A stretch of DNA of 22,722 nt from a virus: the IMG/VR virus record IMGVR_UViG_3300031952_000160, positions 1 to 22,722 of that record, one strand, 5' to 3'. This document shows, piece after piece, positions 6,732 to 22,474 of this stretch. Within the stretch, counting starts at the first letter, position 1. Each line of letters starts with the position of its first letter. The notes beneath the pieces were generated by a model. That model saw only the letters and a list, made by a program, of their open reading frames with translations, was not told the DNA's origin and made no database searches. The position numbers and the translations under genes are program-made.

Positions 6732-9173
6732 TTACATTGGTTGTTCTTGCATTTGTTCTTGTTCCATCTCTGCTCCTTCTGGTTGCGCTTGCTCCTCTTG
6801 CATTTGCTGTCCCTCTTGTTCTGCTCCTTCTTCCTGCGGCTGTCCTTCTTGCATTTGTTGCTGTTGTGCCATTTGCGCCTGCATTATATCTTCTGCGTTT
6901 ATGTTTTCAGAAAACAATGGCATTGCTATATTTTGCAAAATTTCCGCTTCTAATGGTTTAAGCTCTGCTGGTACAGCCATTCCTTTTTGATAAATACCAA
7001 ACAACCCCGCTACCATTGACTTCTTTAATTCGTTTGTTGTTTCTGCATCGCTTATTCTTTTCTTTATTTCCAATTCCATTTCAAGCGACTTTCTTCTTTC
7101 TTGCTCCGCCATTTGCGCCGATTGCATTTGACCTTGTATTGTCATTTGCTGATTTTGCATAGCTTGAGCTTGAAGCGTTTCTTGCATTTTCTTCATTGAT
7201 ATTCTGTAGTATTCCTCTGCAAGTTTAACGTCCTCTTTGGCTATTCTTATTATTTTAAAAGTATCTAAGAACATTGCCAATTGCGGATTGGAAGCAAGTG
7301 CTTGGTTCATTTTTTGATCAAGCATCATTATCTCTTGTCCGGTAGGCAATAACTTAACATCTGTGTTAAAAATCCTAGATTTAACTTCGTCTGCTCCAAT
7401 TATATGCCTATATGCTTGTGATCCATAAGTTACAGATGTATTTAATAAGCAAGATATTTTTCTTGCTGTTTGTTTCATACAATCCACATATGCGTTGTAC
7501 ATATAATCTGTAGCGTTTGCGGCTACCTGTTGTGCTGTATCTATATTCCCGGTTGTTACTCTTGGTTGAAGGGCTTGATTAGCCATATTTGGATCTTCTC
7601 CAAGCTCGTCTTTTAATACAGAATAATGAAACTGGTATAGCTGAATCAAACCTTGCATTTGTGGCAAAAAACCAGAGTTTGCAAGTTCTGTTATCGGCAC
7701 TGGCACTTGGTTTCCTTCGTCATCTTTACCTCTGTAATAAAGCGTACCCGTTTGGTCATACAGCTTCATTACGTCTATCGTCTTGTTGGCATCGCCTAAT
7801 CCATAATCAATTGATTGAAGCGCGTCCCAATTTATCAAAGCTCCTGTTGGTCTCATTTTAGCAACAAGCTGTTGCATTTTTAACCGGGCTAATATCATTT
7901 GGTCTGCTGGCTCTTCTATTTTTTCCGGTACAGCAAGGTTGGTTAGTGAGTAGTTTTGATACATGTAAAAAGAATAAGAAAACTCTGCGTTTCCTGTTTC
8001 TTTTGGATCTTGCGGACGTATCATATTTCTCTTCAATCCCCACTCAAGCATTATCTGCTTTACTCTTACCATTACACCACGATAAATATTCCAATTTGTT
8101 TCATCTATTACCTCTTCGTTTTCCGCTTGCTTTTCGTCTCTTCCCTTTTTTAATATTGTGCTTTTATTCTTCTTGGTTGTTACTGCTGTGTACGAATTTG
8201 TATCTACTGTTTTTATTTCAAAATCAAGTACATCTACATTCCATTCGTCATAGGGCCTAAATGCTGTTATATTCCAGTTCACATCCCAGCGTAATTTATC
8301 ATTGTATTGGAAATCTTTTGCGGTTGCAGATATGTCCCAAAGTTCTTGTTCGGTTAGTGTACCTCCAAACTCTTTGCCATACTTTCTTCTAAGCTCACTT
8401 ATCTTCATTGACTTAACCTGTCCGCGCCAAGTTGTATCTCTCAAATCCGGATATTCGCTGTATGAATATAGCGCATTTTCTGGCTTTACATAATCAACAT
8501 GAATTACCCCTTGTTCGTCCATCCAAGTATATGTTCCAACAAATCCGACTTCGGCGCTATCGTGTAGCATTTTTTCTTTAAGAACATCAAACCAGCCTCC
8601 TGCTTGTAGTATATCATTACATGCAAGCTCGTATAATATTTCTTCTGGAAGCCTTTGGAATTGCTTAACCCATAGATTAAGATCGTCTCTAGTTTCAGGT
8701 ATTTCTCTATCAGGAGTTACCTTCATTCCGCTTTCCTGTTCAAGCCTAGCAAGATACTCTCTATTTGTAATTAAAAATTCAAGCTCTTTGTATTCTTGTA
8801 ACTTATCGTCTTGTGATAAATTATCTACCGCGGTTATTTGAATTTTCTCATTTCTATTCATCCACCTGCCCACTAATCCAGAAATAATTCTATTTACAAT
8901 TCTTATTGATTGCCAATTAATATTTGCGTAGTTTACCTTTCCGTTAAAATCAAGCAAGTCCTGAAACTTGCCCATATTTATTCTTCCGTTGGCAGAATTT
9001 CTGTTTAATTTGTAGCGATTGTTTCTTGTCCAGTAATAAGAAGTAATTCCTCCGCCGATAGTAGTATCAATATATTGAGCTATTTTTAAACCATATTCTT
9101 TTTGCGATTTATCCTTTATAGACAAATCGTTTAGTTGAAAATCCTTTAATATCGTTGCAGATTTTTCCATCAT
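6732..9173 (-). CDS. Portal protein
   Basis: The 813-residue protein is the size of large portal proteins, the dodecameric ring at the head vertex through which DNA is packed. It lies directly after the large terminase gene. The N-terminal two thirds are mixed alpha/beta with many Trp/Tyr (YYWTRNNRYKLNRNSANGR near 41-60). Residues ~490-680 are helical with a Gln/Met-rich coiled segment (MKKMQETLQAQAMQNQQM), as in the portal stem/crown region. The last ~57 residues are a low-complexity Met/Gln/Glu/Pro tail. The start used is the first of two adjacent ATGs. A promoter-like TATATTTG lies about 20 bases upstream. The call rests on position, length and overall layout. Confidence 0.85.
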   Translation of the reverse strand: MMEKSATILKDFQLNDLSIKDKSQKEYGLKIAQYIDTTIGGGITSYYWTRNNRYKLNRNSANGRINMGKFQDLLDFNGKVNYANINWQSIRIVNRIISGLVGRWMNRNEKIQITAVDNLSQDDKLQEYKELEFLITNREYLARLEQESGMKVTPDREIPETRDDLNLWVKQFQRLPEEILYELACNDILQAGGWFDVLKEKMLHDSAEVGFVGTYTWMDEQGVIHVDYVKPENALYSYSEYPDLRDTTWRGQVKSMKISELRRKYGKEFGGTLTEQELWDISATAKDFQYNDKLRWDVNWNITAFRPYDEWNVDVLDFEIKTVDTNSYTAVTTKKNKSTILKKGRDEKQAENEEVIDETNWNIYRGVMVRVKQIMLEWGLKRNMIRPQDPKETGNAEFSYSFYMYQNYSLTNLAVPEKIEEPADQMILARLKMQQLVAKMRPTGALINWDALQSIDYGLGDANKTIDVMKLYDQTGTLYYRGKDDEGNQVPVPITELANSGFLPQMQGLIQLYQFHYSVLKDELGEDPNMANQALQPRVTTGNIDTAQQVAANATDYMYNAYVDCMKQTARKISCLLNTSVTYGSQAYRHIIGADEVKSRIFNTDVKLLPTGQEIMMLDQKMNQALASNPQLAMFLDTFKIIRIAKEDVKLAEEYYRISMKKMQETLQAQAMQNQQMTIQGQMQSAQMAEQERRKSLEMELEIKKRISDAETTNELKKSMVAGLFGIYQKGMAVPAELKPLEAEILQNIAMPLFSENINAEDIMQAQMAQQQQMQEGQPQEEGAEQEGQQMQEEQAQPEGAEMEQEQMQEQPM

Positions 9174-9191
9174 GGTAGACCTTCTTTATGC

Positions 9192-9199: not shown

Positions 9200-9256
9200 T
9201 CATTTTTTTATTGAAAAAATATTTTTTTAAATGGCTTTGGTTTAAATATTTATTTT

Positions 9257-11314
9257 TTATGCCTGAAAAACCCGGATTAACGGTGTTGTTACTTTTCTTT
9301 CTGGTGGCTGTTGCTCCAAGCTGCTAACCAGTGTAATCATTGCGCTTACCGTCTTATCCGATGGCGTTCTTTTATATGGCTTGAATTTAAGCAAGTCCTC
9401 CAATAAATCTTCGTAAGATATTTTTTCGCAATGGTGTTCGATGTATGTTATCATAGCATCGTTTTGTTTTGTCAATGCAAATGGTGTAGTAGGGAATCCG
9501 AAATGCCTATCAACGTTTTGGTTTCTTAATTTTATTGGATCGATCGTGTTTTTGGGGAATCTTCCAAGATAATTAACCCTTCCTCTGTTTTTAAAATAAG
9601 TATAATAATCGTCCGAAACAAACTCAAAATAAACAGGGAAACTCATGTACTCTGAACAAAGAAGTATTTGGTCGTACATATCTTCTTTTTCGTTTGGTCT
9701 ACCGTAAATATGTCCTCCAAAAAGCCCTGTATTTTCCGGGTCATTCATATCGTACTTTATAAAAAACCACCCAGACAATTTTGATCCATATTCTTTTCCG
9801 CCCTGCGTGTTGGAATATCCATCCACCCCAATAACGCCAACGTTTGCTCTTGTTGGCATCCTAACGTTTCCGTTCATTTTGAATTTATTGTCATGCCCCA
9901 CTGGTGGCAATACTAATACCTTCCAATATAATTCTGTTTTATTTGGGTCTACATCTCTCCATCTAACTCTCTGCGTTTCTAGGTCTCTGTAAAAATTTAA
10001 ATACCTAAATGTGGTAACTGGGTTATTTCTTAGGTAAGCGATTTGCGCATTAATGTTTTGAACATTAAAAATACAATCATCGCCGTCATTACTAAACGCT
10101 TCTTCAATAGTTCTAGCTTCCTTCTTAATCCTTTTTGATAAAGACCTTGCATTGTGCTTTACTGATTCCCTATCTCCAAGAATTTCTTTTACAGTTTTTG
10201 CTACATCGGGAAATCCATACAAATCAAAATTCTTTGCCCTGTCAGCAGTCATAAAGAAACGATATAAACCACTTGCTGTTCTTCCGTTTTCTTGTTTGTT
10301 TAACTGGTCGCTATCGTCCCAAAGATTTTTTGCTGCATCTTGTATTCCGTCTCTTTCTGTTTCTAGTTTCTCTACTGTGCTACTGTATAGCGCTTTACCA
10401 ATAATTCGTCCTTCATCATCAAGCAAGCAATAACGAATAACTTCATGCCTATCATAGATATTTACTTCGGTTGTTTTTGCCCACTCGTCCGAAAAGTATC
10501 TATGCAGCTTCTGTCCATCATAAGCAATGGTATCGGCACTTTGAAAATCAATCATTGACCCTAATTCATCCTTGTCAATATTATCTTCTGCTTTTTTACC
10601 TCTTACGTTAGTTTGCTGGAATCTAATTTCTGATTTTGGAGTAACACCCAAACTCATATCGTATTCGGGCCTGAAAAATCTTGGCAACTTTTTAAATGGA
10701 GATATTACGGCTTTGGCAAAAACTTTTTTAGCATCTGCTCCAGTTTTTGACTGGATACCGCCATTGGTCATTCTTGTCCTTGTAATGTAATCGTACAAAA
10801 ACATACCACCCCTGTACGTTTTACCAAATCTTCTTTTAGTAATCTCCAACATGCCCATACAATCGGTATCTTCCTCTACATACTTCAAAAAATAAAAATA
10901 CTCCAAATCTGGTTGCCTAAATCTTGGGTATCCAATATCAATTTGAAACCATTGCATGTACATATAGTGAGAGCCGGTGATATACGTTGGCTTCCCATTA
11001 TTCATAAACCAAAACCCATTCAATCTTCTGTCCCACTCTTGTTGTTTATATCGCTCTAGCTGGTCATCATAAAATGGCGGGTCGTCTTCTTTTCTTTTCT
11101 TATCGTAAGCATCTTCTTTTTTAAGTACATCTTTGTACCAGCTAGGCAAAGGAGTTCTTTCCCAGTATTGATCTTCTGGCTTATTTGACCTTTTATAAAT
11201 TTCTCGGCTTTCAAGTTTTCTAGTAGCTAAATTAAAAACATACCCTTGTGGGGGTATGTTACAAATTAAGCCCTGAATATCTATTGAAGTGCCGCCTTCT
11301 ATTTTATTAAACAT
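9257..11314 (-). CDS. Terminase large subunit (packaging ATPase/nuclease)
   Basis: The 685-residue protein powers DNA translocation into the procapsid and cuts the concatemer. The ATPase domain has a Walker A of the terminase type at residues 159-166 (TKRRFGKT) and a Walker B at 273-277 (YFSDE, with D276 and E277). The nuclease domain has the RNase H-like acidic residues: D498 in VIGVDGY, an acidic cluster near 564-569 (FEFVSDD), and D653 in PSDKTVSAMI. The N-terminus (~1-120) is a longer extension with many charged and aromatic residues. Its ATG overlaps the end of the preceding small gene by 8 bases, and the portal gene follows. Motifs, length and order agree; this is the safest virion call in the window. 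Confidence 0.93.
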   Translation of the reverse strand: MFNKIEGGTSIDIQGLICNIPPQGYVFNLATRKLESREIYKRSNKPEDQYWERTPLPSWYKDVLKKEDAYDKKRKEDDPPFYDDQLERYKQQEWDRRLNGFWFMNNGKPTYITGSHYMYMQWFQIDIGYPRFRQPDLEYFYFLKYVEEDTDCMGMLEITKRRFGKTYRGGMFLYDYITRTRMTNGGIQSKTGADAKKVFAKAVISPFKKLPRFFRPEYDMSLGVTPKSEIRFQQTNVRGKKAEDNIDKDELGSMIDFQSADTIAYDGQKLHRYFSDEWAKTTEVNIYDRHEVIRYCLLDDEGRIIGKALYSSTVEKLETERDGIQDAAKNLWDDSDQLNKQENGRTASGLYRFFMTADRAKNFDLYGFPDVAKTVKEILGDRESVKHNARSLSKRIKKEARTIEEAFSNDGDDCIFNVQNINAQIAYLRNNPVTTFRYLNFYRDLETQRVRWRDVDPNKTELYWKVLVLPPVGHDNKFKMNGNVRMPTRANVGVIGVDGYSNTQGGKEYGSKLSGWFFIKYDMNDPENTGLFGGHIYGRPNEKEDMYDQILLCSEYMSFPVYFEFVSDDYYTYFKNRGRVNYLGRFPKNTIDPIKLRNQNVDRHFGFPTTPFALTKQNDAMITYIEHHCEKISYEDLLEDLLKFKPYKRTPSDKTVSAMITLVSSLEQQPPERKVTTPLIRVFQA

Positions 11315-20772: not shown

Positions 20773-20785
20773 CTTTTATTTTTAG

Positions 20786-20856
20786 TAATCAGGACAAGAT
20801 TTGAACTTGTACAAACAGAATCAAAATCTGTTGTGCTACCATTACACCACCTGACT
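20786..20856 (-). tRNA. tRNA-Gln (anticodon UUG)
   Basis: The minus strand folds into a full cloverleaf of 71 nt: acceptor AGTCAGG / CCTGATT (one G-T pair) with discriminator A, a D-arm GTG..CAC with GG in the loop, an anticodon arm ACAGA / TCTGT with loop TTTTGAT (anticodon TTG), a 4-base variable loop, and T-arm ACAAG / CTTGT with loop TTCAAAT. No CCA is encoded. It reads CAA, the favoured Gln codon in the AT-rich, Gln-rich virion genes. Confidence 0.9.
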
Positions 20857-21317: not shown

Positions 21318-22007
21318 TTAAAACAAAGTTGGTTGAGATTGTTCGTTATTTATTCTTTTGGTTAATACTTCATAATAATTTTCATCAATTTCGCTTCCTA
21401 AAAAATTTCTTTTTTCCTTAATACATGCTACTGCTGTTGTACCGCTCCCCATAAATGGATCAAAAACTAAATCGCTTTCCCTGCTTGAGTTTGTTATTAA
21501 AGTTCTAATTATGTTTAATGGCTTTACTGTTGGGTGTTCAAATTCGCTTTTTGAATTATTTTGTAAAAAATATTTTTTCTTGCTTGCGTACCCCCCCCCC
21601 AAATATGCGCCTTTCCCTCTCATAAATATTATGTATTCGGTATCGCTTAAATATTTATTATTAGTTGTAGGTATTGGGTTTAATTTGTGATAACAAAGTA
21701 TGTCAGTATTCATGCTGTTTTCTTTTCCCCAAAGCAAAATCTGTAAAACTTGGTCTTTGCTACAAAAAAAATAACAATTGAAAATCTTTAGTACCCTTTT
21801 ACATTCATCAAGTATTTTATTTTCAAAACCATCGCTTAAAGATTTAACTCCGGTGTGATAATCTCTTTGCTCAACTCCAAAACACCCTCCAGACCCTCCA
21901 GAAACTATTTCATAAGGAGGATCTGCAATTACTAAATCTATCGAACTGTTAGGAAGCCTTTTTAAAGTTTCTAAACAATCTTCATTATACACTTTATTTA
22001 TTTCCAT
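21318..22007 (-). CDS. Beta-class DNA methyltransferase (N6-adenine or N4-cytosine) with G10 tract
   Basis: The 229-residue enzyme transfers a methyl group from S-adenosylmethionine to DNA. Motif IV is DPPY at 29-32 and motif I is FDPFMGSGTT at 182-191, in the beta-class order, with a typical HPTVKP (158-163). No restriction gene is adjacent, so it is an orphan enzyme that may protect phage DNA or change gene expression. A run of ten G (21591-21600; plus-strand C) encodes Gly137-139. One base more or fewer shifts the frame into a stop about 12 or 23 codons later, before motif I, so the tract could switch the enzyme on and off. The ATG overlaps the tail of the upstream membrane protein gene by 14 bases. 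Confidence 0.88.
   Translation of the reverse strand: MEINKVYNEDCLETLKRLPNSSIDLVIADPPYEIVSGGSGGCFGVEQRDYHTGVKSLSDGFENKILDECKRVLKIFNCYFFCSKDQVLQILLWGKENSMNTDILCYHKLNPIPTTNNKYLSDTEYIIFMRGKGAYLGGGYASKKKYFLQNNSKSEFEHPTVKPLNIIRTLITNSSRESDLVFDPFMGSGTTAVACIKEKRNFLGSEIDENYYEVLTKRINNEQSQPTLF
21591..21600 (-). repeat. Poly-G(10) phase-variation tract in the methyltransferase
   Basis: Ten consecutive G on the coding strand lie in an AT-rich genome. TTG + 3 GGG codons keep the frame at exactly 10 G. Alleles of 9 or 11 G would give premature stops before motif I, worked out by reading the other frames. Confidence 0.9.
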
Positions 22008-22092
22008 TTAATTCTTTTAATTGTTTAAAAATATCGTAAAGACCATAAACGCAAACTAGTGCCATGGCTATTAAAAAAATAAGTGCTATCAT
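21994..22092 (-). CDS. Tiny membrane protein between RHH and methyltransferase genes
   Basis: A 32-residue frame starts with ATG overlapping the TGA of the RHH-like gene (ATGA) and ends inside the methyltransferase start. It has a hydrophobic segment (MIALIFLIAMALVCVYGLY) and a short polar tail. The double overlap supports it. Function unknown. Confidence 0.5.
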   Translation of the reverse strand: MIALIFLIAMALVCVYGLYDIFKQLKELNGNK

Positions 22093-22313
22093 TTCTTTTT
22101 TATTTTTCTAAGCGCGTCCAATCTTGACATGGCGCTTTCTGTGGTTTTTGTAATAATAGGTTCTGTTTTTTCTTTTTTAGGCTCATACCCATCAAGAAAA
22201 AAATCAACTACTTTCTGCGGAGTAGCAATATTATTTTCAGATTTAACCAATTCTAGTTTATCTATGTTAAACCTAACTCCTATCGGACTTGTTTTGGCTG
22301 CTTTCTTTTTCAT
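22089..22313 (-). CDS. Ribbon-helix-helix-like small protein, first gene of the accessory operon
   Basis: The 74-residue protein has a basic N-terminus (KKKAAKTSP), then a pattern compatible with ribbon-helix-helix: strand PIGVRFNI (10-17), helix 1 DKLELVKSENN, helix 2 ATPQKVVDFFLDGYEP. The C-terminal ~30 residues are charged and flexible. RHH proteins often bind tandem operator repeats and repress their own gene. Here the promoter is inside the GTAGCTAC array next to the gene, so autoregulation is a natural expectation. A role in plasmid-like partition (ParG/omega type) is another option. The fold is read from pattern only. Confidence 0.55.
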   Translation of the reverse strand: MKKKAAKTSPIGVRFNIDKLELVKSENNIATPQKVVDFFLDGYEPKKEKTEPIITKTTESAMSRLDALRKIKKK

Positions 22314-22317
22314 AATT

Positions 22318-22474
22318 TAATTCGTAGCTACAAATTTATAACGTAGCTACGAATTTACCAAATATGTAGCTACAAATTTATAAAAAATTAACAAAAACGT
22401 AGCTACAAATAGAGAAATGTAGCTACGAATTATAAGAAAACGTAGCTACGAATAAAAAATATGTAGCTACAAAT
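22318..22474 (+). repeat. Seven-copy GTAGCTAC repeat array (operator or iteron)
   Basis: Seven copies of the palindromic core GTAGCTAC start at 22324, 22343, 22366, 22399, 22419, 22442 and 22463. All are preceded by C or T and followed by (A/G)AAT, so they share one direction despite the palindromic core: consensus YGTAGCTACRAAT. Spacings are 19, 23, 33, 20, 23 and 21 bases, close to two helix turns except one gap. AT-rich DNA lies between the copies. Regularly phased repeats like this bind a regulator, an initiator (iterons) or a partition protein. Confidence 0.9.
22331..22362 (-). promoter_or_regulatory. Promoter of the RHH/methyltransferase operon inside the repeat array
   Basis: The minus strand has TTTG (22362-22359), a 20-base spacer and TAAATTTG (22338-22331), a good Bacteroidota promoter whose last base touches repeat copy 1. 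Copy 2 lies in the spacer, and copy 3 just upstream of the -33 element. The ATG is at 22313, so the leader is short. Binding of a protein to copies 1-3 would block RNA polymerase. Confidence 0.65.

Follow-up and report, generated by a model that had tools for sequence, protein, structure and literature searches.

A Putative Poly-G Phase-Variation Switch in Orphan DNA Methyltransferase Genes of Phages

Results

A Beta-Class Methyltransferase Gene in a Bacteroidota Phage

The window, as we call the whole 22,722-base stretch of viral DNA from IMG/VR analyzed here, carries on its minus strand (positions 21318–22007) a gene for a 229-amino acid protein, predicted to be an orphan beta-class (N6-adenine/N4-cytosine) DNA methyltransferase (MTase). 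The protein matches the Pfam profile PF01555 (N6_N4_Mtase) with E=1.6e-29 and 103.9 bits (cut-off 26.7), as well as the PHROG 67 DNA methyltransferase family (phrog_67, 4.9e-53). Translation and alignment place the catalytic motif IV, DPPY, at amino acids 29–32 (21912–21923, minus strand), and alignment and frame simulation place the AdoMet-binding motif I, DPFMGSGTT, at amino acids 183–191 (21435–21461, minus strand). Alignment also revealed a clade-specific stretch, NKYLSDTEY (21633–21659, minus strand), from which the probe for the census described below was taken.

The best fold matches of the structural model (mean pLDDT 68, pTM 0.73, with uncertain loops, including the tract) were M.MboIIA (1g60), M.BceJIV and CcrM. 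Together with M1.HpyAVI (8urk, 6pbd and 5hfj for the last three), these best fold or sequence matches share the beta-class fold and motif order; their identity over the fold match is about 21–26%, and their recognition sites are not transferable. Profile score, N-terminal DPPY, C-terminal motif I and fold all agree with the beta class.

Scans of the window proteins with Pfam, PHROGs and PADLOC recognized no restriction gene, and no cognate endonuclease alongside the MTase. Within the limits of this fragment the MTase is therefore an orphan, as expected for an anti-restriction enzyme of this kind.

The terminase large subunit (TerL) of the window matched 87 phage records, 86 of which are Flavobacterium, Cellulophaga, Tenacibaculum or Maribacter phages (the other being labeled Caudoviricetes), in line with the Bacteroidota phage proposed in the initial annotation. 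Relatives of the MTase in annotated phage records are below 60% identity, and closer ones, at about 82% DNA identity, occur in eight other viral contigs. When the whole window was aligned by blastn with the loci of these eight relatives, the MTase region alone aligned; the contigs, which may be fragments, gave no match to TerL. Both observations fit a gene exchanged between phages.

Some other features of the window deserve mention. A tRNA-Gln (TTG) lies near the MTase (20785–20856, minus strand), and a NUMOD-type homing endonuclease gene, recognized by Pfam and PHROGs, is found within the structural gene cluster (1243–2046). Positions 22319–22474, directly upstream of a 74-amino acid minus-strand ORF (22089–22313), contain an array of seven palindromic boxes of the type GTAGCTAC, where 0.2 would be expected, flanked by AAATTT. 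The array is a candidate operator or partition-like site, and the ORF product, judged by eye, looks like a small DNA-binding regulator.

A G10 Tract in the Reading Frame

Within the MTase gene, ten consecutive G are found at positions 21591–21600 of the minus strand (C10 on the plus strand), corresponding to gene positions 408–417 and codons 136–139, where they form a putative slippage switch. The tract is read TTG GGG GGG GGG TAC (L-G-G-G-Y), and in the model it putatively falls within a loop that links a strand to the next helix. With 10 G the gene is in its full-length (ON) frame. Simulated tracts of 9 and 11 G gave proteins of 160 and 150 amino acids, respectively, both ending upstream of motif I, while 7 or 13 G would also be in frame. 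What had been noticed from the letters alone, namely ten in-frame G inside a beta-class MTase gene, a C-terminal motif I and its loss at either neighboring length, was thus exact.

No second run of G or C longer than 6 occurs in the 22,722 bases, for which a Markov estimate predicts 0.003 runs of C and 0.0004 runs of G of at least 10, and none of the dinucleotide shuffles matched the G7 word count of the window. Given the protein and the codon usage of the contig, any G8 would arise in the gene in 220 of 20000 draws (1.1%), and TTG-GGG-GGG-GGG for LGGG with a chance of 3e-4. Taken by itself, the window tract is just moderately unusual; its significance comes from the census of relatives.

The Same Site in Close Relatives

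Seven of the eight closest homologues have no tract at this site, where they use mixed codons (e.g., GGT GGC GAT, in L-G-G-D); the tract is therefore recurrent rather than conserved. The exception is L009, a 59-kb contig from another phage with 82% DNA identity in the gene; here eleven G occupy the site and throw the gene out of frame. The initial annotation had named mixed glycine codons in homologues as evidence against the switch, and this observation applies in part, given the seven relatives that have them. At the window's own site, length variation consists of this G10–G11 pair alone. Searching viral contigs for the pattern around the tract (GGNGCNTATTTGGGGGG), we recovered L162 (= L009) as the sole match in the same gene; the remaining matches were unrelated runs of G6–G8 and were rejected.

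The part of the L009 gene that follows the tract, read in the shifted frame, showed dN values of 0.07–0.09 and dS values of 0.8–1.9 relative to its relatives. These values mark purifying selection on the out-of-frame 3′ part, and the gene is therefore not a decaying relic. Between the window and L009, synonymous sites are nearly saturated (dS 1.2 and 1.9), so that the common tract must have been retained or else have arisen on two occasions; branch support on the gene tree at this point (85/64) fits one origin as well as two.

The 59-kb contig of L009 also contains a second G11 (28176–28186; L528 2177–2187), which is intergenic and upstream of a 774-amino acid ORF. This ORF resembles a replication gene, and a promoter-spacing switch is possible there.

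A Tract-Blind Census of the Clade

To survey the clade we used as a probe NKYLSDTE[YF], a conserved stretch that lies between the tract sites and carries no tract information. The complete scan returned 71 viral contigs, which with the window make 72 rows; all tract lengths and frames come from assemblies, and each tract gene was examined in three frames. A tract of G7–G12 lay inside the gene in 18 of the 72 rows, at five gene positions: about 250 and 220–230 bases upstream of the probe stretch (after DPPY), and 59 (the window and L009), 187–191 (just before motif I) and 255 bases downstream of it. AT-rich phages can have tracts too, examples being L279 (24.5% GC, G9), L310 (31.7% GC, G8) and the window. 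The census contigs matching the cultured phages H105/1, CP-T1 and 138 have no G tract.

Eight of these genes are in frame, namely L269 (G9), L298 (G8), L310 (G8), L480 (G11), L492 (G10), L500 (G8), L466/L319 (G8, the tract of L466 being taken from L319, another part of the same contig) and the window (G10). The out-of-frame genes are L458 (G12), L495 (G9), L476 (G7), L513 (G8), L173 (G8), L305/L011 (G9), L162/L009 (G11), L308 (G10), L455/L176 (G7) and L471 (G9). Frameshifts were thus present in 10 of 18 genes with a tract and in none of 54 without (Fisher p = 8e-8), a few of the latter being cut by the end of the contig or locus. The association persisted (p 2e-7 to 4e-7) when the genes were clustered at 95, 90 or 80% identity. 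In all ten out-of-frame genes both halves were open and conserved, and no other lesion was seen; in L495 the shift falls after motif I, which makes the loss of function less sure.

Excess of G Tracts over Codon Usage

As a null model for the census loci, we took all ORFs with 80 or more codons and redrew their synonymous codons according to the usage of the contig concerned. G8 or longer runs were observed in 12 MTase ORFs against 1.07 expected, an 11-fold excess (Poisson p 2e-9). Among the other ORFs, G8 was observed in 8 against 3.2 expected, but three of the 8 encode C5-cytosine MTases, and with these set aside the five remaining non-MTase ORFs show no excess in the census loci (p 0.21). 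On the gene tree, the presence of a tract changes at least 13 times and the out-of-frame state 10 times. Excess and repeated changes together indicate that the tracts recur, and that they do so chiefly in genes for DNA modification.

Close Pairs and Wider Surveys

Three pairs of contigs differ in tract length at high identity. An out-of-frame G9 in L471 corresponds to an in-frame G8 in L500, with 96.8% identity over 5.3 kb; for L263 (G9) and L272 (G8) the identity is 99.6% over 3.5 kb, and for L259 (G8) and L308 (G10) it is 92.5% over 1.7 kb. Measured against what defines a contingency locus, an in-frame repeat beyond chance is present family-wide (with p ~0.01 for the window alone), neighboring lengths abolish the product in the window gene according to the frame simulation, and both frames coexist among close relatives in these three pairs. 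Along with the G11 of L009 and the census association, the near-identical pairs support the on/off switch that the initial annotation had put forward.

A survey for poly-G at motif I yielded 85 stretches of 8–10 G in both frames; for 82 of the 85, the automated calls gave 59 in frame, 20 out of frame and 3 undecided. This set was selected for the tract, a few records appear in it twice, and some of its in-frame G8 may be ordinary codon choice. We therefore built no statistics on it, the stretches being tract-selected and in-frame G8 explicable by codon usage. In a sample of 81 DPFMGSGTT MTase genes of any kind, no G run longer than 5 preceded motif I, so that the tracts belong to certain lineages and not to all phage MTases. 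In two cultured phages, Oceanotoga UFV02 and Lactococcus D4351, G runs in the MTase gene reach at most 6. The motif-I pattern had 0 matches in 295 genomes of the order Bacteroidales, the number expected per base being too low for a verdict.

Frameshifts were also encountered elsewhere. In Enterococcus phage 156 (L330 3001–3724), a frameshift close to an A8 run divides the homologous MTase between two ORFs, and Lactobacillus johnsonii plasmid NZ_CP040855.1 (L516 ~1501–2173) carries an unannotated MTase of the same clade with a frameshift at a G7 and a second one downstream. The viral contig of L006 terminates exactly in a C9 run (L529 1–9), as if assembly had broken at a variable homopolymer.

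C5-Cytosine Methyltransferases and Other Genes

A complete small scan for YGFPCQxF[ST] returned 11 contigs with C5-MTases, five of which (L505, L517, L518, L520 and L521, two of them near-identical) have one or two G7–G11 runs at two fixed places in the gene; several are out of frame. L500 harbors a G8 in a C5-MTase gene (9251–9619) and another in the adjoining beta-class MTase gene (8482–9184). A gene of the PAPS-reductase family (phrog_424) with an in-frame G9 (L512 1564–2418) is perhaps another switched DNA-modification gene.

Discussion

A Possible Switch and Its Benefit

We consider it quite probable, on sequence grounds, that the orphan phage MTase is phase-variable by slippage of its G tract, most likely as a form of bet-hedging against host defences. 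Slipped-strand mispairing during replication would add G to the G10 tract or remove it, presumably in a reversible manner. Genomes with 10 G (also 7 or 13) would encode the full and presumably active enzyme, and those with other lengths a truncated protein lacking the AdoMet-binding motif, so the phage population would be split into genomes to be methylated and genomes not to be. Methylated progeny might then escape restriction enzymes that cut the unmethylated site, while unmethylated progeny might escape type IV restriction, which depends on methylation, and be spared whatever the modification costs. The window gene would be one case of a general pattern, in which poly-G arises repeatedly at different glycine-coding places in a beta-class clade and in phage C5-MTases. 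Going further, we consider it slightly more likely than not that poly-G phase variation is widespread and convergent in phage DNA-modification genes generally, with natural populations being epigenetic mixtures that hedge against both types of restriction.

The main alternative concerns the benefit: a real switch could serve gene regulation, with the phage carrying a phasevarion that influences lysis, lysogeny or host genes. Phage MTases can indeed change host expression, as reviewed for PamA of S. aureus (PMC13076061). We judge this role rather unlikely, yet it competes with the last step of the scheme alone and not with the switch itself. Switches in both beta-class and C5 MTases of different phages fit escape from defences better, and this spread over chemically distinct enzymes is why we regard bet-hedging as the most likely benefit.

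One might instead suppose that the tracts are real but that their out-of-frame lengths reflect miscounted G homopolymers, since every allele comes from metagenome assemblies and G runs are error-prone in some sequencing chemistries. We find this improbable. The excess of tracts in MTase genes is independent of exact length, the deviations include +2, and single reads are long enough to span the tracts. Moreover, the census genes contain thirteen A/T runs of 8–9, and among the genes with such a run L476 alone is frameshifted, the shift lying at its G tract.

We also give little credence to a mutational accident, whereby glycine-rich motifs come to consist of GGG codons throughout, undergo slippage and end up in MTase genes that are dead and under relaxed selection. 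The tracts do occupy glycine-coding places, codon usage can account for in-frame G8 at motif I, and phage MTases are easily gained and lost (PMC10333322, PMC7468147). Against an accident stand the restriction of the codon-usage excess to MTases, the number of tract-state changes on the tree (at least 13, over five gene places), the strong constraint that L009 shows in its out-of-frame part, the lack of further lesions in the ten out-of-frame genes, and the tract common to the window and L009 despite saturated synonymous sites (dS above 1.2).

Homopolymer-dependent transcriptional or translational slippage occurs in bacteria. If polymerase or ribosome were programmed to slip on poly-G, off alleles could leak some full-length enzyme, and the tract would set the dose. 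Lengths of 7–12 in both frames, rather than one conserved shifted length, and frames that switch between close relatives make this very improbable as the main explanation, though conceivable as a leaky addition to phase variation.

Relation to Known Systems

The mechanism itself is already known in bacteria, where MTases switched by simple sequence repeats (SSR) include Type III mod genes, H. pylori M.HpyAXVII, Campylobacter cj0031 and Neisseria enzymes (PMC5700931, PMC4889913, PMC12003011). As in these systems, the repeat lies inside the reading frame and out-of-frame lengths truncate the protein, and several of the bacterial repeats are poly-G. The bacterial genes, however, are chromosomal and mostly part of restriction–modification systems or phasevarions, whereas those described here encode a small orphan MTase of phages, with tracts at several places of one exchanged family.

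The present genes are of the same kind as the orphan MTases described in gut phage methylomes (PMC10711547, PMC10477858), as roving MTases (PMC10333322) and in cryoconite (PMC7468147), with which they share exchange between phages and a presumed role in protection from restriction. Term searches of these papers found no homopolymer phase variation, nor did those of two recent reviews (PMC11868660, PMC13076061) find a phage-encoded phase-variable MTase. To judge from the open-access journal papers searched, in which we found no report of it, poly-G phase variation in phage MTases appears to be undescribed.

NeuO, the capsule O-acetyltransferase of E. coli K1, depends on a repeat of a type different from a poly-G tract. 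It resembles the MTases studied here in being phage-borne and phase-variable, but it modifies the host capsule and not DNA (PMC13001214).

Phase variation has so far been treated as a bacterial strategy. If our interpretation is true, phage methylation would be a mixed and fast-switching trait, and host-range tests, phage methylomes and single-plaque stocks would overlook the switching. By the same token, MTase genes that viral metagenome annotation marks as "broken" may be alive and in their off phase. The proposal also makes testable why phages retain orphan MTases, although methyl-dependent restriction can punish them for it.
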